Positions 454 through 26,084 of a stretch of 32,847 bases of DNA are shown piece by piece (position 1 is the stretch's first letter; each line of letters opens with the position of its first letter). Made by a program: the position numbers and the translations under genes. The DNA comes from Planctomyces sp. Its GTDB lineage: Bacteria > Planctomycetota > Planctomycetia > Planctomycetales > Planctomycetaceae. The notes beneath the pieces are model-generated. The model was not told where the DNA came from, made no database searches, and was given only the letters and a program-made list of their open reading frames with translations. The stretch covers positions 1 to 32,847 of the forward strand of contig JAIXVG010000173.1 in assembly GCA_027483145.1 (NCBI GenBank), read 5' to 3'.

Positions 454-3400
454 CTACTTGCCCGGGTAAAGCCGCTCGTACGTGCGATTGAGTCGCTCTG
501 CAACTTGCTGGGCGGTTGGCGTGCTTAGGCGATCATTGAGCGATTCGAGAATCTCGCTCAATCGCTCACTCCAGCTTTTGAGATAGTAGACCTTATCGTA
601 TACGCGCGGCGCCAATGCCCCTTTCCCGGCCAGATCGAGGTGTTCGCTAAACATAGTGCGTGACTTCACGACGCACCGCGCATGTTCAAGATCATCGCGA
701 AGTCTGCTCTCCGGAAAAACAACCGCCATTGTTCGGTCGGCAAACGCTTTGGCATCGTGCGAGAACTTGTCTCGGAACGTGAAAAGCTCACTCAGCGTGT
801 AGAGTGAATCGAGATAGCGGTCACAGAAGACTGGAACGAGAAAGCTGCAGGCGCGAACCTGATCAATGAAGTTTGAGATTGAATCTCCTTCAGCCAGGTC
901 CCGTTCGTCAAACAAGATCTTCCAACCGGTCGGTTCCAATAAGCTTTCAAGCTCGCGCAACAGCAACCGACCCCGTTCCGAACCTGCGATTGACTCATTG
1001 GGATGCCGATACGAGAAAAAGACACTCTTGGGTGGATAAGTCGCTTCCAGTGTGACTGGTTTTGGCTCACTACAATCAACCGACTTCTTCAAACGCCGCC
1101 GCTTGGTTCCGTTCTTCCATTTGATGGTCGGTGCCTCACCAGCCGGGACCTCGGCTAACACTTCAAGCAGGGCTTTAATCAATTTCTTTGGCTGCTCGCC
1201 CCAGGCCTGGATGGACAGCGTATTGTCTCTTTTTCGAATCAGCACTTCGCAATTGGTCGTCGCTTCCCAGAAGTGACAGCCATACTTCCAGTAGGTTGGG
1301 ATATCCATCGCCAAACGGCCAATTGCGGATAGAAACCCGCGGGCAATGCCATCGTGCAGCAAGCGGTAGGCAACAGTGACCTCTTCACCCTGCTTCGCCT
1401 GGAAGTCCCAAATGTTCCCGAGGGGCTGTTCTTCCCAAGACTCTAATAAATCAGGGGAAATGTATTCAGTCGGCTGTTCATACAGGTACTCGTTCGCGAT
1501 AAAGCAGATGCCGCATTGAACCATAAAACTGAGGAATAACTCTTGGTCTTCGACCGAGTGTTTCCTTGTCGGTGTCTCCCAAAAGTAGCGTGCCAAATCC
1601 TCGCGGCTGAAACGGCCCTGTTGACGTTTAAGTTGCCGCTGAAATGATTCGTTACGAGTATTAACCACGTAGATTTCGGAAAGCACCCAGCTTTGGTCGA
1701 CGATGATCTGATCGCCAAAGATCCCCGCCCGATAAAAGATGACTCCCATCAGGTGTAAAGCGTCCCTCAAGATGTCAATCGCTTGAGGGGCGACTCCTTT
1801 TTCCAGGCACAGCATCTGGAACTCGGGTTTCGTCAAAGCACGCGGTGTACGGGCAAGCTGCATCTCGCGAATGGCTGCGCGAACGGCAGCCCAAGTCGCA
1901 GGCAAAGGTGGCTGAGGGTGAGCCGCGAGTAACCGCTTAATGGCATCTTCGATCGAGGGAAGAAGATGCCTCAGACCGCGAGGGTCCTTGGCACTGGTGT
2001 GGACAAGCCGCGAAAGCTGCGGGAACTGCTTGGCACTTGGCCGTGATTCCGGTTCGGGAAACTCGCTGGAGACATCACACTGAGCTTGAACCAGAAGAAC
2101 AGGACTGTGAACAACTCCATCCCTACCCGCTGCCTGCCTCAAATAGTCGAACCAGTAGGGGAGCAGCCGGTTATGCATGAAGAAGCCACTATCTTCGACA
2201 ATAGCCTCGTTTTCGGTCGCTTCTGCAAAGACTACGAAGTAAACAGCCGGTTCACGCAAGAATAACGCATGGGTTCCGTGGTAAATGTCTTGCCCACCGA
2301 AGTCCCATAAGCAAAGTGTGACGGGGTGCGGCAGGTTCCACTCCAGCGGGACAGAGAACGACTCGATTTGTACACCATGCGTAGTGACATCCGAAATCTC
2401 TTCGTAAGGCCTGCCGAGTAACCTTCCGACAAGCTTGGTTTTACCCGCTCGGCCGTTCCCCAACACAAAGGCCTTGATTTCTGCATCAGGTTGGGCACTG
2501 GGGCCAAGTGCTCCATAGTATTGACGAACCGTTTCGACGGCGTTCTCATTTTGGTTCTTACCACAGACAGCAGGATGGAGGTCAGAGAAACGAGAACCAT
2601 AGACCTTGAGTGTGTTGAGTTGGTCGAGCAACCGCACGACCGGCGAAAAGTTCTTTAGACCAATGCACAAAGACAGATCGAGTGTGGTCAGGTTCCCAAG
2701 ACCTCCCACCCCGTTGATGTTAGTGAGACCATAGCACTCAGACAGATTGAGCGAAGTCAGCTTGCCGAGATTCTGCAGCACGTCGATGTTGGTAAGACCA
2801 TGACACCGAGACATATTGAGCGTGGTCAGGTTCCCGAGACCTTCCAGCCCGTTGATGTTGATGAGACCATAGCACCTAAACAGATTGAGCGTGGTCAGAT
2901 TCCCAAGCTTCTTCAGCCCGTCGATATTGGTAAGACCATTGCACCCAGACAGAATGAGCGCTGTCAGCCTCCCGAGATTCTGCAGCGCGTCGATACTGGT
3001 AAGACCATCGCACCCAGACAGATTGAGCGTGGTGAGCTTCCCGAGATTCTGCAGCACGTCGATATTGGTGAGACCATTGCACCCAGACAGATCGAGCGTG
3101 GTGAGGTTCGCCAGACCTTCCAGCCCGTTGATGTTGGTAAGACCTTTGCACCAAGACACATCAAGCGTTGTGAGGTTCCGGAGACCATGCACCCCGTCGA
3201 TGTTGGCGAGACCTTTGCACCAAGACACATCGAGCGTTGTGAGGTTCCGGAGAACCTGCAGCACGTCGATATTGGTGAGACCATTGCACTCGGACAGATT
3301 GAGCGTGGTCAGCTCACGGAGACCCTGCAGCCGGTCGATGTTGGTCAGACCTTCGCACCGATACAGATCGAGCGTGGTCAGCTTCCGGAGACCCTGCAGC

Positions 3401-4233
3401 CCATCGATGTTGGTCAGACCTTCGCACCAAGACAGATCGAGCGTGGTGAGGTTCCCGAGATTCTTCAGCCCGTCGATGTTGGTAAGACCATTGCACTGAG
3501 ACAGATCGAGCCTAGCGAGGTTCCGAAGACCCTGCAGCCCATTGATGTTGGTAACACTATTGCTCCAAGACAGATCGAGCGATTTCAGTTTCCCAAGATT
3601 TTGCAGCCCGTCGAGGTTGGTAAGACCGTTGCATCCAGACAGATTAAGCGCGGTTAGCTTTCGGAGTCCCTGCAGCGCATCGAGCTTGGTAAGGAGATAG
3701 CACCCAGACAAATTGAGCGAGGTTAGTTTTCGGAGACCCTGCAGCGCATCGAGGTTGGTAAGGCCGTGGCACCCAGACAGATTGAGCGCGGTCAGCTTCC
3801 CGAGATTCTGTAGCATGTGGATGTTGGTGAGACCTTTGCGCCAAGACAGATCAAGCGTGGTGAGGTTCCCGAGACCTTTTAGCAAGTCGACGTTCGCGAG
3901 ATCCTCGCACCCGGACAGATCGAGCGTGGTGAGGTTCCCGAGATCTTCCAGCACGTCGATGTTCGTGAGACCCTCGCACCCAGACAGATCGAGCGTGGTG
4001 AGGTTCCCCAGACCCTGCAGCCCGTCGATATTGGCTAGACTATTGCACCGAGACAGATTGAGCGTGGCAAGGTTTTCCAGGCAATGCGTCGACGTTCCAA
4101 GTTCGTCAGGTAACTTGGCCAACGGCAGACCGCTCAAGTCGAGCGCGGTAGCCCTGTTTGCTTCCGCCTCACGAATTCGCCGGACGGCCTCGGTATGTGC
4201 TGCTGTAGAAATCTCCTCCGATGATTCCGGCAT
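454..4233 (-). CDS. LRR-Roc-COR-TIR (ROCO family) protein
   Basis: A large multidomain protein. Numbering here is from the GTG at 4308 (1284 aa); the preferred start is the ATG at 4233 (residue 26), because the family-like N-terminus (AVRRIREAEANRATALDLSG) follows it. Residues 77-580 hold about 22 leucine-rich repeats of exactly 23 residues (LxNLTTLDLSGCxGLTNIDx). A Roc GTPase follows: P-loop GNGRAGKTK at 617-625 and switch-like WDFGGQD at 668-674. The usual G4 motif is weak (VQAQCD, 740-745); SAK at 772-774 fits G5. A COR-like region spans roughly 800-1075. A TIR domain begins at SVFFSYRHPNE (1095) with LYTLSEL at 1169-1175; Glu1174 sits where TIR NAD-hydrolases have their catalytic Glu. Known: Roc-COR is a GTP-regulated dimerisation switch. 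Inferred: LRR sensing controls a TIR effector, possibly in immunity. Lone gene, no partner next to it. Confidence 0.93.
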   Translation of the reverse strand: MPESSEEISTAAHTEAVRRIREAEANRATALDLSGLPLAKLPDELGTSTHCLENLATLNLSRCNSLANIDGLQGLGNLTTLDLSGCEGLTNIDVLEDLGNLTTLDLSGCEDLANVDLLKGLGNLTTLDLSWRKGLTNIHMLQNLGKLTALNLSGCHGLTNLDALQGLRKLTSLNLSGCYLLTKLDALQGLRKLTALNLSGCNGLTNLDGLQNLGKLKSLDLSWSNSVTNINGLQGLRNLARLDLSQCNGLTNIDGLKNLGNLTTLDLSWCEGLTNIDGLQGLRKLTTLDLYRCEGLTNIDRLQGLRELTTLNLSECNGLTNIDVLQVLRNLTTLDVSWCKGLANIDGVHGLRNLTTLDVSWCKGLTNINGLEGLANLTTLDLSGCNGLTNIDVLQNLGKLTTLNLSGCDGLTSIDALQNLGRLTALILSGCNGLTNIDGLKKLGNLTTLNLFRCYGLININGLEGLGNLTTLNMSRCHGLTNIDVLQNLGKLTSLNLSECYGLTNINGVGGLGNLTTLDLSLCIGLKNFSPVVRLLDQLNTLKVYGSRFSDLHPAVCGKNQNENAVETVRQYYGALGPSAQPDAEIKAFVLGNGRAGKTKLVGRLLGRPYEEISDVTTHGVQIESFSVPLEWNLPHPVTLCLWDFGGQDIYHGTHALFLREPAVYFVVFAEATENEAIVEDSGFFMHNRLLPYWFDYLRQAAGRDGVVHSPVLLVQAQCDVSSEFPEPESRPSAKQFPQLSRLVHTSAKDPRGLRHLLPSIEDAIKRLLAAHPQPPLPATWAAVRAAIREMQLARTPRALTKPEFQMLCLEKGVAPQAIDILRDALHLMGVIFYRAGIFGDQIIVDQSWVLSEIYVVNTRNESFQRQLKRQQGRFSREDLARYFWETPTRKHSVEDQELFLSFMVQCGICFIANEYLYEQPTEYISPDLLESWEEQPLGNIWDFQAKQGEEVTVAYRLLHDGIARGFLSAIGRLAMDIPTYWKYGCHFWEATTNCEVLIRKRDNTLSIQAWGEQPKKLIKALLEVLAEVPAGEAPTIKWKNGTKRRRLKKSVDCSEPKPVTLEATYPPKSVFFSYRHPNESIAGSERGRLLLRELESLLEPTGWKILFDERDLAEGDSISNFIDQVRACSFLVPVFCDRYLDSLYTLSELFTFRDKFSHDAKAFADRTMAVVFPESRLRDDLEHARCVVKSRTMFSEHLDLAGKGALAPRVYDKVYYLKSWSERLSEILESLNDRLSTPTAQQVAERLNRTYERLYPGK
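2566..4080 (-). repeat. Tandem 69-bp coding repeats (LRR array)
   Basis: The LRR segment of the ROCO gene is about 22 tandem copies of a 69-bp unit that are strongly alike at the DNA level. The plus strand repeats variants of 'GTGGTGAGGTTCCCGAGA' and 'CAGACAGATCGAGCGTGG' in every unit. This generates long antisense open frames (for example 2800-3657 +) that are artefacts of the repeat. Confidence 0.93.
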
Positions 4234-4416
4234 GCTGGTTGGTCCAGGATTAGTGTCTGTCGGCAGGGTGGCTTGGATTTGGTTGGCCCATAGATGTTGC
4301 CAGAACACGTGCTTATTTTCGAGGCAATGGTTTGGGCCTCGGCCGGGTGGATATCGCTAGCCGTGGATTATTCATGGCTCGGATGGCCAGCCTGTCTCCA
4401 CGCGACCTCGGATTAG

Positions 4417-5310: not shown

Positions 5311-6639
5311 CTAACCACGAAGCTGGTTAAGGATAGCGTCCAAGACTTCGGCGTCGCTGGGGTAGTGGGAGGGGAGGACGGCCTTCAGGGGGATGGGGAC
5401 TTCGTCCATGCGGTAGGCGGTGCCGGAGCGGTGGATGCCGTAAATGTCGGTGGTGAACGAGACGGCTGGCGAAAGGCCCGAACGTTCGAGGCCGGTTTGG
5501 GGAAGAGGGTAGTCGATAGAGATAATGGGGATACGGCTTAGCCCGGCGATGGCATCGGGCGAGAGGGAGGCGACTCCTTCGCTTCCTAAAAGAACAGCAG
5601 CATCGGCTTCGCCATTAGCCCACATTTCTCCTGCAGAGAATTCGCCGGGGTTATAGCGTGGATAGCCCGCGGCCAGGTTGACGCTGAAGGGATAGCCCGT
5701 TTGCCAACAGAGGACGCTATCGGCACCGGCCACATCGCCCGGAATGCGCATGCGACGGGCGTAGAAGCGGGTGTGGTCATTGAGCTCGGTGACCAGCCGC
5801 AGCAGGATTTCGACCAGCCGATGAGGTTGGTGTTGGCGAGTGAGGCCATAGCCAAAGAAGATGACGCCTGAGTGAGCGGCCTTCATGGTGTTGGCTAATT
5901 GCTTGAGGGTATCGAGCGGGAGGCCGTATTCGCCGGGAGGTGGTTCGATATCGCGCAGGAGCATCCGCAGGGCAGAGATGGCCTGAAAGTCGTAGCCGGG
6001 CTTGATGATGAGGGGCCAATCGGCCTTTGCGGTGGTTTCGTTGGGTTCAACATCGATAACGACCAGTTTGCGACCTGCGCGGCCGGTGGGAGTGAAGTAG
6101 CCACGCGGCTCGACGGAGTAGCGTTCAAAATGTCGCGGATGGGTTTTGACCGGGTTCGAGCCCCAGAAGATGACGAGGTCTGATCGATTTTTGACCTCGC
6201 CCAACGTACAGGTTGATTCGCCGACTTGCTGGAGGGCGAGAATGGAAGGGCCGTGGCAGGCCGAGGCGGTGGTGTCGATGGTGGCGCCGAGAAAGTCGGC
6301 GAGGGCGGCTGCGGCCCGTTGACCTTCGGTGCAACTGCGTGAGAGGCCGAAGATAACGGGAGACTTGGCGGCGCGGAGGATGTCGGCCGACCTGGAGATG
6401 GCGTCGGTCCAAGCAGCGGGCTGGCCGGCGATGGTGGCAGAAGGACGAGTGACATCGCCAATCGAAAGAAAGAAGTCGTGCACCAGTTCGCAGGCCCGCT
6501 CGGCCTTGGTGATGCGACCGTTATCGATGGTGAAACGAAGATCATCGCAAAGGCAGCCGCAACCGGTGCAGGCGACGTCTTCGATGATGGTCAGCGAGGT
6601 AGAGATGGCGAAGGGCTTTCCGGTTGAGGGGGGAATCAA
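5311..6639 (-). CDS. fhcB: Formylmethanofuran dehydrogenase subunit B-like protein (Fhc/Fmd subunit B)
   Basis: A 442-residue protein resembling FmdB/FwdB/FhcB. The N-terminus has the cysteine cluster CTGCGCLCDD (Cys24, 27, 29, 31). Further on are SACHGPS (Cys128) and GEVKNRSDLVIFWGSNPVKTHPRH (147-170), typical of this molybdopterin-oxidoreductase-like subunit. In methylotrophs and planctomycetes the Fhc complex passes formyl groups from methanopterin-type C1 carriers to formate; in methanogens subunit B is the catalytic subunit. The other subunits (fhcA, C, D) are not adjacent, so the gene is dispersed here. The start is TTG at 6639, directly preceded by an in-frame stop (TGA); no in-frame ATG or GTG lies before the cysteine cluster. 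Divergent from the regulator at 6871. Family assignment is firm; whether it binds a metal cofactor is unknown. Confidence 0.88.
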   Translation of the reverse strand: MIPPSTGKPFAISTSLTIIEDVACTGCGCLCDDLRFTIDNGRITKAERACELVHDFFLSIGDVTRPSATIAGQPAAWTDAISRSADILRAAKSPVIFGLSRSCTEGQRAAAALADFLGATIDTTASACHGPSILALQQVGESTCTLGEVKNRSDLVIFWGSNPVKTHPRHFERYSVEPRGYFTPTGRAGRKLVVIDVEPNETTAKADWPLIIKPGYDFQAISALRMLLRDIEPPPGEYGLPLDTLKQLANTMKAAHSGVIFFGYGLTRQHQPHRLVEILLRLVTELNDHTRFYARRMRIPGDVAGADSVLCWQTGYPFSVNLAAGYPRYNPGEFSAGEMWANGEADAAVLLGSEGVASLSPDAIAGLSRIPIISIDYPLPQTGLERSGLSPAVSFTTDIYGIHRSGTAYRMDEVPIPLKAVLPSHYPSDAEVLDAILNQLRG

Positions 6640-6777
6640 TCAGTGGTTGGGGGCGGATTGGCTGACGCTTTGGTATCGTACCATAGCAAAGGAGATGAGG
6701 AGGGTGCCAGTCGAGGGTCTGGGTTGGGTTTGCGGGTGGGTTTGTTTGAGGAGTTCAAGAGCGAAGAGAGAAGAGAA

Positions 6778-6804
6778 CCGGACGCTAGCGCGTTCCGGCT
6801 GATG
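6778..6804. repeat. GCTAGCG interspersed repeat, copy 2
   Basis: CCGGACGCTAGCGCGTTCCGGCTGATG, matching the copy at 4899-4929. It lies in the divergent spacer between the fhcB-like gene and the regulator, which argues against a regulator start at 6643 because the repeat would then be translated. Confidence 0.6.
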
Positions 6805-6870
6805 GAGAGAGATGGTTGGTGGAGAGGGAGGGTTGGCGAGTTTCGGTGGTGGATTCTATGGAGCGATTTT

Positions 6871-8280
6871 TTGACCAAGGGACGAGCGAGCGTTGGGAAG
6901 ATTGAGCCGTGGCTGTCGCGGAGCTTGCTACCGGTCTGTTTATTTGATTCGCACCGGAAGCTGCGGTTTTTTAATGCGGGTTGCGAAGAGCTAACGGGAT
7001 ATGCGGCGAGCGATGTGATTGGGCAGGCTGCTCACTATACCAGTGTTGATGAGACGAGTTCGCTGGCAGGGCTGCTGGCTGCGATTGCGCCGCCGCCAGA
7101 GGTATGGGAAGGTAACGGGCTGGAGGTGCCGGTGTATGTTCCCACCAAAAGTGGCGGGACGACCGGGCGACTGATGGTGTTTGTGCCGCTACTGAATGAG
7201 AAGAACGGAGTTGATGGAGTGCTGGCGACGATTCAGCAGCTTCCTTCGATTCCGGCGGCGGCGAAGCCATCTGCGGCACAACAGGTGCATGCAGAGCTGG
7301 CGGCGATTCGTCAAGAGTTGCGTCGGCGATATCAAGAGGCTTCGCTGATTGGTAAGTCGGCTTCGATTCAAGTCATTCATCGCCAGGTGAAACTGACTCG
7401 TCAGGGGGTGGGCGCGCTGGGGATTGTGGGTGAAGCGGGGACAGGCAAAGAACACTTGGCGAGGGTGATTCATCACTTGGGGCCGAAGGGGAAGCAGACG
7501 TTTGTGCCGCTTGATATTACCTGCAGTACGCCGATTGATGTGAAGCTGGCGCTGAAACGTTTGCGGCAGCCTCAGTCGGAGCCAACCCTGGCTGCATTGG
7601 CAGCGGGGACGATTTATCTTGCACATGTTGAACAGCTGCCGCGCGAATTGCAGATGGAAGTGTCGGGCTTTTTGGACAGCGGAACCCCCTCCAGCCCGGC
7701 ATTGATCTGCAGTATGGATCAACCACCGGCCGCACTTGTCGAGGCAAATCTGTTGACTGAGGAGCTGGCGTGGTGGCTGAAACCGCTGGTGATGGAGCTG
7801 GAGCCGCTTAGAGATCGCCGAGAGGATATCTCGCTGTTGGCGCAGTTCTTCATCGAAGAGTTGAATCGGACGGCCACAACGCAGCGATCGGGGATTAGCA
7901 GCGAGGTGCTAACGCAGTTTGTGCGGTACCAGTGGCCGGGGAATATCGAGGAGTTGCGAGTCGTTGTGACGGAGGCTCATGCAGCTGCCAGAGGGGCGAT
8001 GATTGGAGTGAGCGATTTGCCATTTCGATTTCGGGCGGGGCAAGACGCGATGGCAGTTGGGCATGCCGGAAACGCTGGTTCAGGAGTAGGGGGAACGATT
8101 GAGCCACTTGACCAGGCCCTGGAGAGACTGGAACGAGACTTGATTCAACTGGCGATTGGACAAGCGAAGGGAAACTTGACCAGGGCGGCTGAGCTATTGG
8201 GGGTGAACCGGCCACGGTTGTATCGCCGGATCGAGCAGTTGGGGAAAGACGGAAGGCTAGAGATTCAGGATCATGGATGA
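6871..8280 (+). CDS. NtrC-like regulator with PAS, degenerate AAA+ and Fis-type HTH domains
   Basis: A PAS-like sensor (LPVCLFDSHRKLRFFNAGCEELTGY), an AAA+ module and a C-terminal Fis-type HTH (KGNLTRAAELLGVNRPRLYRRI) form the layout of a sigma-54 enhancer-binding protein. The Walker A is intact (GEAGTGKE, 7429-7452), and RREDISLLAQFFIEELN and WPGNIEELR are typical of the family. However, the GAFTGA loop that contacts sigma-54 is missing, and Walker B reads GTIYLAHVEQLP instead of GTLFLDEI, losing both acidic residues. It is probably a DNA-binding regulator that does not remodel sigma-54. Start: TTG at 6871, with GGAG seven bases upstream; an ATG at 6802 and one at 6643 are also in frame, but the sequence before 6871 is repeat-derived. 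Divergent from the fhcB-like gene, so it may control it. Confidence 0.85.
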   Translation: MTKGRASVGKIEPWLSRSLLPVCLFDSHRKLRFFNAGCEELTGYAASDVIGQAAHYTSVDETSSLAGLLAAIAPPPEVWEGNGLEVPVYVPTKSGGTTGRLMVFVPLLNEKNGVDGVLATIQQLPSIPAAAKPSAAQQVHAELAAIRQELRRRYQEASLIGKSASIQVIHRQVKLTRQGVGALGIVGEAGTGKEHLARVIHHLGPKGKQTFVPLDITCSTPIDVKLALKRLRQPQSEPTLAALAAGTIYLAHVEQLPRELQMEVSGFLDSGTPSSPALICSMDQPPAALVEANLLTEELAWWLKPLVMELEPLRDRREDISLLAQFFIEELNRTATTQRSGISSEVLTQFVRYQWPGNIEELRVVVTEAHAAARGAMIGVSDLPFRFRAGQDAMAVGHAGNAGSGVGGTIEPLDQALERLERDLIQLAIGQAKGNLTRAAELLGVNRPRLYRRIEQLGKDGRLEIQDHG

Positions 8281-8411
8281 CGGAGAAATGGCGGGAAGGG
8301 GGCCGGAGTATTGTGGAGGCTGGATTATGGTGGGGGGGGCTCGACGGGTGATGGGAACTTATTCAGAATACGGGACTCTGATTGACTCTTACCTTTTTAG
8401 ACCGCTTTCCT

Positions 8412-9041
8412 ATGCCACCTCGCGAAAAAAAAGCTAATACGAAACCTGTCTCGCTGATGGGGCCTTATCCTGGGCCGCGGAAGCTGGGGCCGCCGGGTGA
8501 ATCCCCGCTGCCGATGTGGGAAATCTTTGTGGGGGGCGACCTGACTGACAATCAAAAAGAGTTGTCTGAGCAGTTGGTCGAACTGCCGCGAGAATCGCGC
8601 GGGGTGATTTACTTTGACTCGTGCGGCGGGAGTGCCTATGTAGGGCTGTGCCTGGCCACGCTGATTCGGTTACGAGGTCTGAAGGCAACCGCGGTGGTGT
8701 CGGGGGAATGCAGTTCAGCAGCGATTATGCCGTTTGCGGCCTGCCATGATCGATATGTGACGCCCCATTCGTCGCTGCTGTTTCATCCGATCAGATGGCA
8801 AAGCGAAGAGCAAGTGCGGCTCGAAGAAGCGGCTGAGTGGACGCGGCACTTCAAGCTGATGGAAGCGGACCACGACCAGTTGATTGCAAAGCTGTTTGGG
8901 TGTAGCGAAGAGCTGCTGGGGACGTGGACAAGGCCAGGGAAGTTCGTCTCGGGGCCAGAGCTGGTGGAAGCGGGGCTGGCGAAGATGGTTGATTTGTTTT
9001 CGGGGACGATCTGGAAGCAGATGGCGGACGTGGGGAGATGA
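8412..9041 (+). CDS. ClpP-like serine peptidase (Clp/crotonase fold)
   Basis: A 209-residue protein from ATG 8412; a TTG ten codons upstream (8382) is also possible. The core is ClpP-like: VIYFDSCGGSAYVGLCLATLIR resembles the ClpP 'INSPGG' strand-turn region. GECSSAAIMPFAA places a nucleophile at Ser102, and SSLLFHP places the base at His125. A clear third catalytic Asp cannot be assigned by eye. It has no signal peptide or membrane segment and a basic, proline-rich N-terminus of about 30 residues. Canonical clpP is longer conserved and usually beside clpX or tig; this one stands alone downstream of the regulator, so it is probably a divergent paralogue. Relatives include the SppA and TepA groups. 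Confidence 0.75.
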   Translation: MPPREKKANTKPVSLMGPYPGPRKLGPPGESPLPMWEIFVGGDLTDNQKELSEQLVELPRESRGVIYFDSCGGSAYVGLCLATLIRLRGLKATAVVSGECSSAAIMPFAACHDRYVTPHSSLLFHPIRWQSEEQVRLEEAAEWTRHFKLMEADHDQLIAKLFGCSEELLGTWTRPGKFVSGPELVEAGLAKMVDLFSGTIWKQMADVGR

Positions 9042-20945: not shown

Positions 20946-22880
20946 TTACTGGGGTGGGCCACCGCCGCGCCGGAAACGCAGGATCATGGCCTGCATTTCG
21001 GGTTCGCTGATGAACCCGTCATGGTCGGCGTCGACCTGCGCGAAGTTGTCGGCCAGGGGACCACTCACCTCTGCCGGAGAGAGTTTGCCGTCGCCGTCTT
21101 TGTCCTGCTCTTTGAAGGAGAGTCGCGGGCCACGTGGTGGGGCGCCGTCCATCCCCTGCTTTGGGCGTGGATCTCCCTCTCCCATCGGTGGGGCTGCAGG
21201 CTTGGCTGGGCCTGCTTGCGGAGCTACGGGTGGAATACCTGTTGACTCGGGCCCTCGATCGGGCAATTGAGCTTGCTGCTTCGCCCATAGGGCTTCCAAC
21301 TCCCCCACCTCCTTCGCGAATTGGGAGCGTGGGTTCATGACGACCTGGTCACCAGCCTTGAGTCCACTGATGACTTCGACAACGCGATCGTTCGTTTGGC
21401 CGATGGTGATTGGCTTACGAACGCCGCGCGAACCTTCGATTACGAACGCGTGGTGCTCTTTGCCGATGGTGACAATCGACTGGACCGGCGCCTGGAGGAC
21501 GTCGTCACGGCGATCAACGATGACTTCGATCCCTGCCGTTAAACCTGGGCGAAGCTTGTTGACCTGTTCCCCCGTTCCGCGAAAGCGAATGACGGCTTCG
21601 TATTCTTTGACGTCGGTCCGGCCGAACGAATTTGAAAGAGGGACCGACGAAACACCGTCGACTGTCCCTTCGAAGACTTCGCTAGCATAGGCATCAACCC
21701 GAATGCGGACCTCCTGGCCGGGTTTAATCAGGCTGATGCGCGACTCGTGAATTCTCGCGTTGACTTTCATGGCGTCGAAGTCGGGAAGGTTGATGATCGC
21801 CTGACGTTCGCGGACGCTGGCTCCTTCTTCGATCAGGACACTTTGGTCTGGTCGACCGTCGCGCGTGTTGGCATAAACGACCTGCCCATCTTGCGGGGCG
21901 AAGATTTTGCAGTTTTCGATCTGCATCTTCAGCCGCTTATGCTTGTTGGTCTCAACTTCGTCTGTGAGCTCTTTCGAGTCGAGAAGTGCTTTCTTCTGCA
22001 GAAGGGCTGATGAGGCTTTGCGGCGAGTTCGCTCGAGTTCCCGGCGATACTCTTCGGCGTTTGCTTTCAGTTCTTCCAGGTTGCGCGTGTAGTTGAACTC
22101 TTCGAGGACACGCAGTTTTTCTGAAGCGACCTTAAAATCAATCTCGGCCTTAGTGACGGCGATTCGTTCGGCTTCGACGTCGTTCTGGCTGCGATACCCT
22201 TTGCGAGCCAGCCGCTTCACGAACGCTTCGCTGTCTTTTGCGCGAGTGACATTTTCACGAGCGAGGGTAACCAGCCCGGTAAGTTCGTTTTGCTGTTGCA
22301 GGTACTCCCCTTCCTGAAACTTTTTCAGGTCGAGTTCGGCCAGGCGAAGTTTCAGCTCGGCGGCAGCGATATCGCTGTCGTTTTGGGTCTTCTGGATGGC
22401 GTAGTCTTCTTGAGCCTGGGCGAGTGCAGCTTGAGCCTGGGTGACAGCAATTCGCTGCTGAGTCTCTTTTTCGACCAGAGCGGATGAGTCGAGTTCAACC
22501 AGCAGGTCTCCCTCTTTGACCTGCGTCCCCTCGCGCACGATCGAGATGATGGTGGTCGTTCCTTCGACCTTACTCGACAGAATGGCGTTTCGCAGGCTGT
22601 CGATGGTTCCCTTTTCGTTGATGGAAACCAGGAAGCTTCCTTGTTTGACTTCGCCAATCATCCAACTTTCCGGGAGATTGGCTTTAGAGCTGGGGCTACC
22701 GACGAGCTCCGGATAGGCGTACCAGACCCCCGCGGCCAACGCCGCGGTTGTCAGCAGGCCGATCCACAGCCGGCTCAACAGGGATAGTTGCCGACGGCTC
22801 TGCGATTTGGGAGTTCGGCCGGCTGGTGGCCGGCTCTCCTGTCCAATCGATAGCGAAGTTGTCGTCAGGGGAGTTGTCAT
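20946..22880 (-). CDS. HlyD/MacA-type periplasmic adaptor with C-terminal EF-hand pair
   Basis: About 644 residues from ATG 22880 (GTG at 22883 also possible). An N-terminal membrane anchor (LWIGLLTTAALAAGVWYAYPEL) is followed by a biotinyl-lipoyl half (VREGTQVKEGDLLVELDSS), a long coiled-coil hairpin of about 200 residues, the second lipoyl half (KIFAPQDGQVVYA), beta-barrel and membrane-proximal domains ending near 540. After a Pro-rich linker come two EF-hand loops, DKDGDGKLSPAE (594-605) and DADHDGFISEPE (618-629). Adaptors of this type link an inner-membrane pump to a TolC channel. The EF hands are an unusual addition implying calcium binding in the periplasm. It lies downstream of, and overlaps, the TolC-like gene; no pump gene is next to it. 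Confidence 0.92.
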   Translation of the reverse strand: MTTPLTTTSLSIGQESRPPAGRTPKSQSRRQLSLLSRLWIGLLTTAALAAGVWYAYPELVGSPSSKANLPESWMIGEVKQGSFLVSINEKGTIDSLRNAILSSKVEGTTTIISIVREGTQVKEGDLLVELDSSALVEKETQQRIAVTQAQAALAQAQEDYAIQKTQNDSDIAAAELKLRLAELDLKKFQEGEYLQQQNELTGLVTLARENVTRAKDSEAFVKRLARKGYRSQNDVEAERIAVTKAEIDFKVASEKLRVLEEFNYTRNLEELKANAEEYRRELERTRRKASSALLQKKALLDSKELTDEVETNKHKRLKMQIENCKIFAPQDGQVVYANTRDGRPDQSVLIEEGASVRERQAIINLPDFDAMKVNARIHESRISLIKPGQEVRIRVDAYASEVFEGTVDGVSSVPLSNSFGRTDVKEYEAVIRFRGTGEQVNKLRPGLTAGIEVIVDRRDDVLQAPVQSIVTIGKEHHAFVIEGSRGVRKPITIGQTNDRVVEVISGLKAGDQVVMNPRSQFAKEVGELEALWAKQQAQLPDRGPESTGIPPVAPQAGPAKPAAPPMGEGDPRPKQGMDGAPPRGPRLSFKEQDKDGDGKLSPAEVSGPLADNFAQVDADHDGFISEPEMQAMILRFRRGGGPPQ

Positions 22881-25800
22881 CACTTAGCCTGGGCGGTTGA
22901 TAACCGGAAATGAAGTTGGCTGCGGATCGATCTGGGTCGGGCAGGTCTTCGGTGAGGAAGGACTGGTCAGCGATAGAGATTGCGGAGTTAAGAACTGTAG
23001 CTTGCGGCTCAGACGGGGGTAGATGAGCCGATGGCGGGAAGTCTGGAGATGGCAAAAACGAAGGAGTCTCTGCGGCCATGGACCTGTACACAGGATCATC
23101 CCACAGGCCATCTTCAGACACCTGCATTGTATCCATGTCGCGATGGATGTTAATTCGGTTCCGCTCGTATTCGACCCAAAAGTTAATCAAATCGTTTTGG
23201 GCGTTGAGGACCGATTGAAGTGCGTTAAGCAGATTAAGCCCCTGATTCGCACCGCCACCCGTAGTACGACCTGCATTACCGGCCTGCGCGGCAGCGACCG
23301 GTGCATTCGCACTTTCAATGGCCAGGTCGAGCTGAATGGCTGATGAGCGGAGGTTCTGGCGTGCGGTTTCAAAGTTTTGGCGGAGCACGTTGAGTTGTCG
23401 CCAAGCCGCCCGGACGTCGAACTTAACCTGATCTTCTAATTGCATATAGGCGCGCTTGGCCCGCTGGTAATCGATTTGCGTTTCGCGATAGACGTTACGC
23501 TCGGCGATCTGGTCGAGAGGAGCAGTGACTTGGACTCCGACCTGATAGGTGCTGCGGTCGGCCCTAAAGGCTAACGGTTTGTTGCCTGGAGCTGTCCCCG
23601 CTTGCCCCGAGGCAACGATGTTGAGGACACCCTGCAAACGATTGGCAGCGACTTCCATGGCACGCCGCGCGTCCATAACCCGGGCGCGGGCGTTCATCAG
23701 GTCGAGGCGATTTTCAACGGCATACTGAACGACTTCATCGAAGCCCAACTCGAATTCGGTCAGTGTTATCAGTTCGACTCGCTGACCAACCTGAACGACT
23801 TTCAGTCCCTGGGTGACCTGTAGCAAGTCTTCGTGGGTTACTTTGAGTCGATTAACAAACTGGTTCCACTTTTCGCGAGTTTCAGCCGCGTCACCCATTT
23901 GAATCAAGTCGATCGTAGCTTGTTCAATCGCTGCAAAGTCGTCTTTCAGGCCAGCGAACGTCCGGCGATCCCGTTCCATGTTCTTGAGGACTAATTGTCG
24001 CGAGATTTCGTCGGGAAGCCGTGCGAGACGTTGCGGCTGGTTGGCAGCCACGCGCGCAAAGTCCTCTTCGAGGATGGCAAACCCCTCCTGGCGAACTTGC
24101 TCGACCAACTCCAAAAAGGCTGGTAAGGCCTGGGCCTGGAGATCGGCTGCAGGGAAGTCGGGATCGAGGATTGCCAAATCGTTCACGAACCGGACGACGG
24201 TTTGTTCGATGTTCGTCAAGCGAGGATCGATCAGCTCGAACTGTTTGAGGAGCGACTTATCAATGGTTAACTGGAAGTCGGTCGGTAAGCCCAGTGTTGC
24301 TTTGAACTGATCGATATTGTCGTAGTAGCTTCGTTCGAGACTTCGCAGATTGTTTTGAGAAGTAGCAAGTCGGGGGACCAGTTGGGCCACTTCGAGATTG
24401 ATGATTTCTTGCTGCAGCGTGGCAATGAGATTGCGGACAGCCTGTGCCCACTCGGGCGATTTGCTAAGACCTTCCAGGATGATGATCTCTTCGGGGGAGA
24501 TCGGCCCGCGCCAAATCAGTTCTTTATTTTGTGGATCGTATTCAAACTGACGGACCAGTTCGGGTGGAATGGTGAGTCCTGCCGGCCAGTTTTCAAGTGG
24601 CTCTGTTGTAAGCTTGGGTGGAGGTGACGCCAGAGCACGGGATCGCTCGAGTTGTACGATGATTGATTGAATATTGTCGCGCTGGTTCGAGACTTGCTGA
24701 AATTGGCGCAACAGACCCAGGTAGCCTCCGCCGGGGCCATTCACGACGGTATCGCCGAAGAAAATCTTGCGGAACCGGGCAAGGGTGCGAATGTCGTACA
24801 AGACCTCGCGCTCGCTGCGAGTTAGCGTTTCGAGGACAACCTTGCGGCCTGCACCCAATAACAGCGGCTGAACGATCGAGTAAGATAGGATTGAAGCGCT
24901 ATTGGTTTGGTTGGGTGAGGAAAAGATCCATAATGTGTTGTTGGTTAACTCGGCGATCCACTGGCCACCGGTCGGAAGGAGCTGGCTGACGCCGAAGTTA
25001 CCATTGAGGGCTACCGAGTCGTTGACACTGGGGCGATTAAGATAATTCACCGAGCCACCTGGCTTACGTAAGCCCGTTCCCAAGTAGCGCACGTTGAACT
25101 GGAATTGATCGAATGTGAGCTGCAGCGCAGACAGATAGACGTTCTCGATCTGGGTTTGATACTCGCGACTATTGATGTTCGCCAGTTCGATGGCTTGCGG
25201 GAGGGTCAAGTTCTTGATGGTGGGTACTAGCCGGCCCGTTACGGGATTTGGAGTGGGGACTGGCTGACCCGGACCAGCTTGCTTCGGAAACAATGGATCG
25301 GGGGACGGAGGGAGGGCGGGATCGGTTAGCTCATCTGGGACCGCGTCAGGATCGAGCGGGGCGGCCTGATTGCCTGCGGGAGTGATCCGCGCTGGGCTTT
25401 GAGAAGTCTCGGCGGCGCTGGCGAGGACGATGCCAGCAGACGGTGCCTCATCGTGCGGCGAATCTGCCAGTGCGTGATGGGCCTGAGCTGATGGACGGAC
25501 GCGGGCCACCGTCCAAAGCGAATCGGGGCCCATAATCGCGCTGACATCGCGACTATAGGGGGACCGGATGTCGATCTTGGGACCTTCTCGCGAGTACTGG
25601 CCGGGGATTTCTTCGGGCAAGACGTCGAAGCGATCGAGCCACTGAGGATTCTCGACCGACATCGATTCACCAAATTTGTGCCAGCTTTGGTAACCGGAAT
25701 AGCCAATCACCCGCTCCATATAGATTCCAGCGGCTGGATCGTCTGGCGGGAGTGGCGGCCTGTCGGGCTGGTAGGGATCGTAGAGACGACTACGGGGATC

Positions 25801-26025
25801 AGCTTCGGTTGTCAGGCGTGGCAAATCCCAGCGTGGATCGGCAGTCTTCTTGAGAAGTTCGTTGTAGGTATCGAAGTCGGCTTGTGTTCGCCAAAAGTTA
25901 CGCGAGCAACCACTGACAGCGAATAGAAACAGGCCGGCAATCAGCATCACCGTTCGCGGCTGGCAAACGTGTCTGACAGCCTGATTCCAGGCCAAGCGGT
26001 AAGTAGCGCGCGTAGACAGGAGCAT
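22696..26025 (-). CDS. TolC-like outer-membrane efflux lipoprotein, enlarged
   Basis: 1109 residues from ATG 26025 (GTG at 26034 possible), over twice the usual TolC length. LIAGLFLFAVSGC is a lipoprotein signal with the modified Cys at residue 40. About 230 residues of Pro-rich, low-complexity sequence precede the first outer-membrane efflux repeat (KNLTLPQAIELANINSREYQ). A long helical insert follows (about 420-720), then the second repeat (FELGFDEVVQYAVENRLDLMNARARVMDARRAMEVAANRLQG...). NPGT-like strand segments such as LGTGLRKPGGSVNYLNRPSV suggest barrel strands. The C-terminus is a disordered Pro/Asp-rich tail whose last 60 or so codons overlap the HlyD-like gene in another frame. It forms an export pair with that adaptor. 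Confidence 0.9.
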   Translation of the reverse strand: MLLSTRATYRLAWNQAVRHVCQPRTVMLIAGLFLFAVSGCSRNFWRTQADFDTYNELLKKTADPRWDLPRLTTEADPRSRLYDPYQPDRPPLPPDDPAAGIYMERVIGYSGYQSWHKFGESMSVENPQWLDRFDVLPEEIPGQYSREGPKIDIRSPYSRDVSAIMGPDSLWTVARVRPSAQAHHALADSPHDEAPSAGIVLASAAETSQSPARITPAGNQAAPLDPDAVPDELTDPALPPSPDPLFPKQAGPGQPVPTPNPVTGRLVPTIKNLTLPQAIELANINSREYQTQIENVYLSALQLTFDQFQFNVRYLGTGLRKPGGSVNYLNRPSVNDSVALNGNFGVSQLLPTGGQWIAELTNNTLWIFSSPNQTNSASILSYSIVQPLLLGAGRKVVLETLTRSEREVLYDIRTLARFRKIFFGDTVVNGPGGGYLGLLRQFQQVSNQRDNIQSIIVQLERSRALASPPPKLTTEPLENWPAGLTIPPELVRQFEYDPQNKELIWRGPISPEEIIILEGLSKSPEWAQAVRNLIATLQQEIINLEVAQLVPRLATSQNNLRSLERSYYDNIDQFKATLGLPTDFQLTIDKSLLKQFELIDPRLTNIEQTVVRFVNDLAILDPDFPAADLQAQALPAFLELVEQVRQEGFAILEEDFARVAANQPQRLARLPDEISRQLVLKNMERDRRTFAGLKDDFAAIEQATIDLIQMGDAAETREKWNQFVNRLKVTHEDLLQVTQGLKVVQVGQRVELITLTEFELGFDEVVQYAVENRLDLMNARARVMDARRAMEVAANRLQGVLNIVASGQAGTAPGNKPLAFRADRSTYQVGVQVTAPLDQIAERNVYRETQIDYQRAKRAYMQLEDQVKFDVRAAWRQLNVLRQNFETARQNLRSSAIQLDLAIESANAPVAAAQAGNAGRTTGGGANQGLNLLNALQSVLNAQNDLINFWVEYERNRINIHRDMDTMQVSEDGLWDDPVYRSMAAETPSFLPSPDFPPSAHLPPSEPQATVLNSAISIADQSFLTEDLPDPDRSAANFISGYQPPRLSDDNSPDDNFAIDWTGEPATSRPNSQIAEPSATIPVEPAVDRPADNRGVGRGGLVRLSGARR

Positions 26026-26084
26026 GGGCCTCACCGGAAGACGTAGGGTCTGCCAAGTGTTAGGAGGGTGGGAAGGTGTTGGAT

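Follow-up and report, generated by a model that had tools for sequence, protein, structure and literature searches.

Activation of sigma-54 promoters requires the L1 loop and ATP hydrolysis. Relatives of NtrC that act independently of sigma-54 are known singly, namely VpsR, NtrX and some NtrC proteins. NtrX is a response regulator with a receiver domain, VpsR has a receiver-like N-terminus, and FleQ has sigma-54-independent roles. The portions of PMC10274813 that deal with such proteins state that some bEBPs without GAFTGA work at sigma-70 promoters. VpsR (spelt VspR there) is described in these portions as a regulator of sigma-70 promoters with no ATP required, and the NtrC proteins of Rhodobacter capsulatus and Caulobacter, in which L1/GAFTGA is deleted, likewise work at sigma-70 promoters. 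In the same portions, R. capsulatus NtrC is said to require ATP binding rather than hydrolysis, and Caulobacter NtrC to require both the Walker A lysine and the Walker B aspartate for ammonium growth (PMC10274813).

We analysed a 32,847-nucleotide stretch of a Planctomyces sp. assembly (contig JAIXVG010000173.1), referred to here as the window, which carries an NtrC-like regulator gene on the + strand. The features of the regulator and its divergent neighbour are as follows; residues are numbered on a query protein that started four codons upstream of the TTG start, at 6859, so that residue n starts at 6859+3(n-1).

5311-6639, - strand: fhcB, formylmethanofuran dehydrogenase subunit B (TIGR03129, 411.8 bits)
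6640-6870, no strand: spacer of 231 bases separating the divergent fhcB and regulator genes, covered by simple promoter scans
6860-6863, + strand: Shine-Dalgarno-like GGAG, 7 bases before the TTG at 6871, seen in the sequence
6871-8280, + strand: regulator gene (PAS, pseudo-AAA+, Fis), 469 amino acids, TTG start and TGA stop, called from the open reading frame, domains and orthologues
6907-7236, + strand: N-terminal PAS-like domain (PAS_9, E 0.002, 18.8 bits, below the cut-off of 27)
7270-7329, + strand: helical linker between the PAS-like domain and AAA+, family consensus HAELxALRxxLR
7339-7809, + strand: AAA+ core, Sigma54_activ_2 (PF14532, 48.6 bits), also in the predicted fold
7429-7452, + strand: intact Walker A, GEAGTGKE, from sequence and alignment
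7537-7605, + strand: region expected for the L1/GAFTGA loop, motif absent in the alignment
7606-7629, + strand: degenerate Walker B, GTIYLAHV, with A and H replacing D and E
7753-7779, + strand: arginine-finger segment LTEELAWWL, lacking both arginines in the alignment
7810-8049, + strand: AAA+ lid (PF25601, 71.1 bits)
7933-7956, + strand: sensor II motif WPGNIEEL, with E364 replacing the arginine
8119-8238, + strand: Fis-type helix-turn-helix (HTH_8, 38.8 bits)

The + strand frame is open from 6643 to 8280 and offers three in-frame starts, GTG at 6643, ATG at 6802 and TTG at 6871. The TTG is the best start because of the GGAG ahead of it, whereas no Shine-Dalgarno-like sequence precedes the ATG at 6802, and the gene bounds given in the original prediction were therefore kept as the best call. 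That prediction had described the product as an NtrC-like regulator with an intact Walker A, GTIYLAHV in place of a normal Walker B and no GAFTGA between the two, and we recovered every part of this description. The domain order is a PAS-like domain, an NtrC-type AAA+ core, a lid and a Fis-type helix-turn-helix. The match of the AAA+ core to PF14532 lies well above the curated cut-off of 25 bits, and PF00158 likewise exceeds its cut-off (35.2 versus 20.2 bits). The PAS match is weak; the N-terminus gave PAS-type matches only, and N39 of this domain is conserved in 46 of 49 family members. Thus, the regulator shares with sigma-54-dependent bEBPs of the NtrC/NifA/PspF type the AAA+ core with its lid, Walker A and the Fis-type helix-turn-helix, and lacks their GAFTGA loop, Walker B D-E pair, arginine fingers, sensor II arginine and L2/pre-sensor I insertion. 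The finger, sensor II and L2 losses go beyond the original prediction: the finger positions are occupied by T300 and W306, and among the six residues scored the regulator keeps the Walker A lysine only.

These losses were then placed against canonical bEBPs in an alignment of 49 family sequences, from which the orthologue L003 (genome G003), carrying an in-frame TAG, was left out. As controls we included 13 bEBPs out of 19 loci of the regulator's own genome, selected by a filter for Walker A, GAFTGA or WPGNxREL, a set that contains two partial or divergent members (L081 and L083). GAFTGA was present in 0 of 49 family members, whereas a GAFTGA-type loop was found in all 13 controls; in L048 a loosely GAFTGA-like stretch was matched 87 residues past the start of Walker A, away from the L1 site. 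The Walker B aspartate was kept in 4 and the glutamate in 8 of the 49, never both together, as compared with 13 of 13 controls for each. The first finger arginine was found in 14/49 family members and 12/13 controls, the second in 10/49 and 13/13, and the sensor II arginine in 17/49 and 13/13. The distance from Walker B to the first finger was 40-50 residues in 48 family members and 64 in one, as against 54 in every control, indicating that the L2/pre-sensor I insertion has gone too. The family picture is not uniform, and L006, L042 and L043 keep four or five of the six catalytic residues. Since the whole clade lacks the contact loop and the bulk of the catalytic residues, canonical activation of sigma-54 by ATP hydrolysis appears very unlikely for the regulator. 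The original expectation that it could neither contact sigma-54 nor hydrolyse ATP productively is in line with the motifs of this protein and of its whole clade, and the regulator probably controls genes in a different way from NtrC activators.

The Walker A lysine behaves differently from the other positions, being K in 34, R in 14 and G in one of the 49 family members (K in 12 of 13 controls, the remaining row being partial and without the site). Because 48 of 49 retain one of the two basic residues, K or R, nucleotide may matter to the family. The intact Walker A of the regulator could also be read as the mark of a still active ATPase whose catalytic acids have been displaced and which remodels another substrate, and 26 of 49 members do have an acid in at least one of the two Walker B positions. 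We consider this highly improbable, as the Walker B acids, the fingers and sensor II have been lost in varying combinations, which has the look of relaxed selection on catalysis.

Of the six loci dropped by the filter, L085 was cut by a contig end and four gave no bEBP alignment. The sixth, L084 (G000:C33:2988-3458 and around), is full-length and bEBP-like, and resembles the regulator in lacking GAFTGA and in having both the Walker A lysine and the Walker B glutamate replaced. It differs in its receiver-like N-terminus and in keeping the Walker B aspartate, the L2 stretch and the arginines of the first finger and of sensor II, and at about 23% identity to the regulator query it is a separate case. 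Degenerate NtrC-like proteins are therefore unusual but not unique in this genome, where the alignment points to at least two, of different kinds.

To place the regulator among proteins of known structure, we used an AlphaFold2 model built from 40 sequences (mean pLDDT 80.4, pTM 0.60), according to which the AAA+ fold is predicted to be retained. The top Foldseek match of the model was NtrX from Brucella (PDB 5m7n/5m7p). On VIA-align, NtrC1 (Z 22.7), NtrX (22.3) and VpsR (21.6) were nearly tied, as were LuxO and FleQ, all within Z 21.6-22.7 over 222-259 residues. When only the AAA+ segment was searched, VpsR (PDB 7v2b) was the top solved sequence (1e-18), whereas FleQ and NtrX, and not VpsR, ranked first among PDB sequences with the full-length protein. 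FleQ is like the regulator in having an AAA+ domain and a Fis helix-turn-helix, in giving the best full-length PDB sequence match and in its high fold match, but it keeps GAFTGA and LDE. NtrX likewise has no GAFTGA in the alignment, but it keeps the Walker B LDE. The NtrC proteins of R. capsulatus and Caulobacter, as characterised in PMC10274813, differ in having a receiver domain and in requiring ATP binding.

VpsR resembles the regulator in its losses, as it also lacks GAFTGA and the finger arginines and has a degenerate Walker B (LLLND) in the alignment. It differs in that its sensor II arginine is intact and its L2 stretch longer. At the N-terminus the regulator family has PAS rather than a VpsR-like receiver domain and so falls outside a VpsR-like class there; VpsR binds c-di-GMP, according to the title of 7v2b. 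VpsR was rejected as a true sister, since a search with the whole protein does not rank it first and the family profile does not single it out. Because that profile puts VpsR no nearer than other bEBPs, we regard it as an analogue whose likeness to the regulator family may be convergent.

We further studied how widely the family occurs. A protein search identified an orthologue in 50 of 59 related genomes, the regulator's own genome included; the set consists of the own locus, 29 further loci from a first search and 20 from a second, of which L050 in G047 was the weakest accepted. No orthologue was accepted in the other nine genomes (G007, G013, G021, G028, G039, G041, G044, G054 and G055). 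We then searched 392 genomes of the phylum with a profile made from the 49 family sequences, scoring four candidates per genome. A family score of at least 369 bits was reached in 35 of the class's 40 genomes, namely 24 of 28 from the taxonomic family to which the window belongs and 11 of 12 from other families, and in none of the 352 genomes outside the class, and only one match per genome, among the four scored, attained it. The best match outside the class (G220, 344 bits) has GAFTDA. In a 70-row tree, which was a quick one without bootstrap and with the catalytic columns kept in, the 36 family rows were split off together by a branch with SH-aLRT 100, and the G220 protein was their sister row with support 86. 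On this tree the regulator family is one clade. A contig scan returned at least 80 loci, of which 39 were inspected: L111, among the matches listed, is an orthologue from a Planctomycetaceae MAG, and the 38 others fell outside the family, most of them carrying GAFTGA-type and Walker B motifs. Given the origin of L111, the class that holds the family is probably Planctomycetia. Our literature search found no description of the regulator family; work by Studholme and Dixon from 2004, which is said to treat Pirellula enhancer-binding proteins, may mention such proteins.

The odd motifs and the in-frame TAG of L003 might suggest a decaying gene or an assembly artefact. We give this next to no credence, because 48 other orthologous frames are open (one of them, L025, cut by a contig end) and dN/dS is well below 1. 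Of 47 within-genus pairs, 23 yielded a ratio, in the range 0.022-0.122, many of these ratios coming from near-saturated dS, and the other 24 had no usable dS; the nine pairs with dS of about 1.1 or less gave 0.033-0.122. The regulator family is kept under purifying selection and is not decaying.

The regulator had also been described as divergent from a C1-transfer gene. The arrangement itself was confirmed, fhcB lying on the opposite strand across the 231-base spacer, whereas the functional link was not borne out by comparison. In a survey of the neighbours at 69 other loci, with flanks of about 1.5 to 12 kb, some of them ended by contig ends, fhcB adjoined the regulator at none within the flanks covered, although 38 of 59 relatives carry an fhcB above cut-off. 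In four single-contig genomes (G001, G004, G018 and G053), the two genes are more than 1 megabase apart. Synteny thus lends no support to fhcB as a conserved partner, and judging from these loci the pairing looks local to the window. A role of fhcB as a target of the regulator is possible. That the protein is a dedicated regulator of fhcB, as the divergent orientation and the spacer might suggest, seems improbable to us in view of the 69 loci and of neighbours that vary among lineages. Within the spacer (6640-6870) we found none of the 16 sigma-54-like matches of the window (10.3 expected by chance). A sigma-70-like scan of 6500-8500 found no match, and a palindrome scan of 6600-6900 found a single 6-base one under the settings used.

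Concerning FhcB itself, we observed an in-frame TGA that aligns with Cys 128 of the window FhcB in 10 of 12 loci (L250-L259, from ten related genomes; TSL-TGA-HGP versus SACHGP), the ten having been picked for a listed TGA and the other two having Cys and Gly there. A TGA at this position is what a selenocysteine-containing FhcB would show. Elsewhere in the window, positions 454-4308 on the - strand encode a 1284-residue protein with leucine-rich repeats, a Roc GTPase, COR and a weak TIR match. At 20946-26034, also on the - strand, an HlyD-type membrane-fusion protein with an EF hand at its end overlaps a frame of 1112 residues that contains an outer-membrane efflux domain.

The neighbours of the regulator vary by lineage. 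Downstream of it in the window (8382-9041, + strand) lies a gene for a stand-alone ClpP-like protein, weakly like a phage head maturation protease; we rejected it as a partner, since it adjoins the regulator in the window only and at 0 of 69 other loci. A PfkB-type sugar kinase gene lies upstream of the regulator in 12 of 69 loci, nine of them from genus g56, and its best models, all below cut-off, are the kinase half of a KHG/KDPG aldolase-sugar kinase fusion and the 2-dehydro-3-deoxygluconokinase type. An S24/HTH repressor-like gene and lpxB occur near the regulator in five of 69 loci, which are five of the six of lineage f2 (L033, L036, L037, L040 and L070; not L043). In six loci of f3, a small degenerate receiver-like protein is encoded downstream. 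Against the Pfam VpsR cut-off of 23.7 bits, the copy at L045 passes (23.9) and that at L048 falls below (18.6), while L042 gave sub-threshold Response_reg and FleQ matches only and L046 and L050 gave no match. Another small protein, without such a receiver or VpsR match, is encoded downstream in four loci of genus g49 of f5.

The kinase-regulator pair provided a lead on DNA binding. All nine g56 genomes (L191-L198 and L099) share a 24-base palindrome, GGTRTGACAA-CTGT-TTGGCAYACC with minor variants, at a distance of 228-251 bases ahead of the kinase start. Searching for the exact pattern recovered it in 9/9 g56 genomes, with one extra site each in G289 and G430 inside a 1007-residue frame, while the reversed control matched once, in G278. 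A further block, GCTGGAATGATT ... GGTAAGCT, perhaps a promoter, is conserved at the same nine loci and lies after the palindrome and before the kinase gene. A copy in the regulator's own genome (G000:C50:9125) has one mismatch in 22 and lies in a gap before a large frame, which we take to resemble a planctomycete surface protein. The spacer in the window gave no match to the palindrome. With two mismatches allowed, the g56 genomes held 45 places, exact sites included, versus 21 for the reversed control, and no clear regulon emerged. With three mismatches to the 22-base core, four of 59 relatives held a place and the reversed control matched in three. Among 30 kinase upstream regions in other genomes, a shuffle fraction of 0.01 or less was obtained in two (L222 and L232), and the three further genera that have this kinase-regulator pair scored low (shuffle fractions L224 0.81, L225 0.05, L230 0.18). 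The palindrome is therefore unsupported as a universal site of the regulator, as other genera with the same gene pair show no clear site and loose searches do not rise far above the reversed control.

Sigma-54 is present in 56 of the 59 genomes, and many canonical bEBPs are encoded in the regulator's own genome, which makes a modulatory role on canonical activators the main rival explanation. The inactive protein would join canonical bEBP rings as a trans-acting partner, poisoning or tuning them and so acting indirectly on sigma-54 promoters, and the predicted retention of the AAA+ and lid folds is compatible with this. We nevertheless think it unlikely, as the regulator keeps a PAS-like domain and a helix-turn-helix of its own, the finger arginines are missing in most members, and another bEBP-like frame lies near the regulator in only two of 40 loci (L040 and L063), so that there is no steady partner gene.

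Together with the predicted loss of the L1 loop and of ATP hydrolysis, the precedents given in the portions of PMC10274813 considered above make it most likely that the protein is a DNA-binding regulator controlled through PAS and built on a pseudo-AAA+ scaffold. We therefore propose, with reasonable confidence, that the protein is a sigma-54-independent, PAS-sensing one-component regulator from a clade derived from sigma-54 activators. The PAS domain would sense a signal, and the pseudo-AAA+ domain would provide the scaffold for oligomerisation, which nucleotide might switch by being bound without being hydrolysed. The helix-turn-helix would bind DNA, and the protein would activate or repress promoters of sigma-70-type holoenzyme, as VpsR and R. 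capsulatus NtrC reportedly do. Much more tentatively, we suggest a wider scheme that is possible but rather doubtful, in which an NtrC ring has turned, across the class, into a non-catalytic PAS-gated switch. In f3 this switch would be aided by the separate downstream degenerate receiver (a 'split VpsR'), and it might act on ordinary promoters through a palindrome like that of g56. Whereas such NtrC relatives were known one by one, the present case is a whole clade that is retained across a bacterial class despite loss of the L1 loop, of the L2 insertion and of most catalytic residues. Such a clade provides many natural variants with which to probe how an AAA+ transcription factor may work without ATP hydrolysis and sigma-54 contact.
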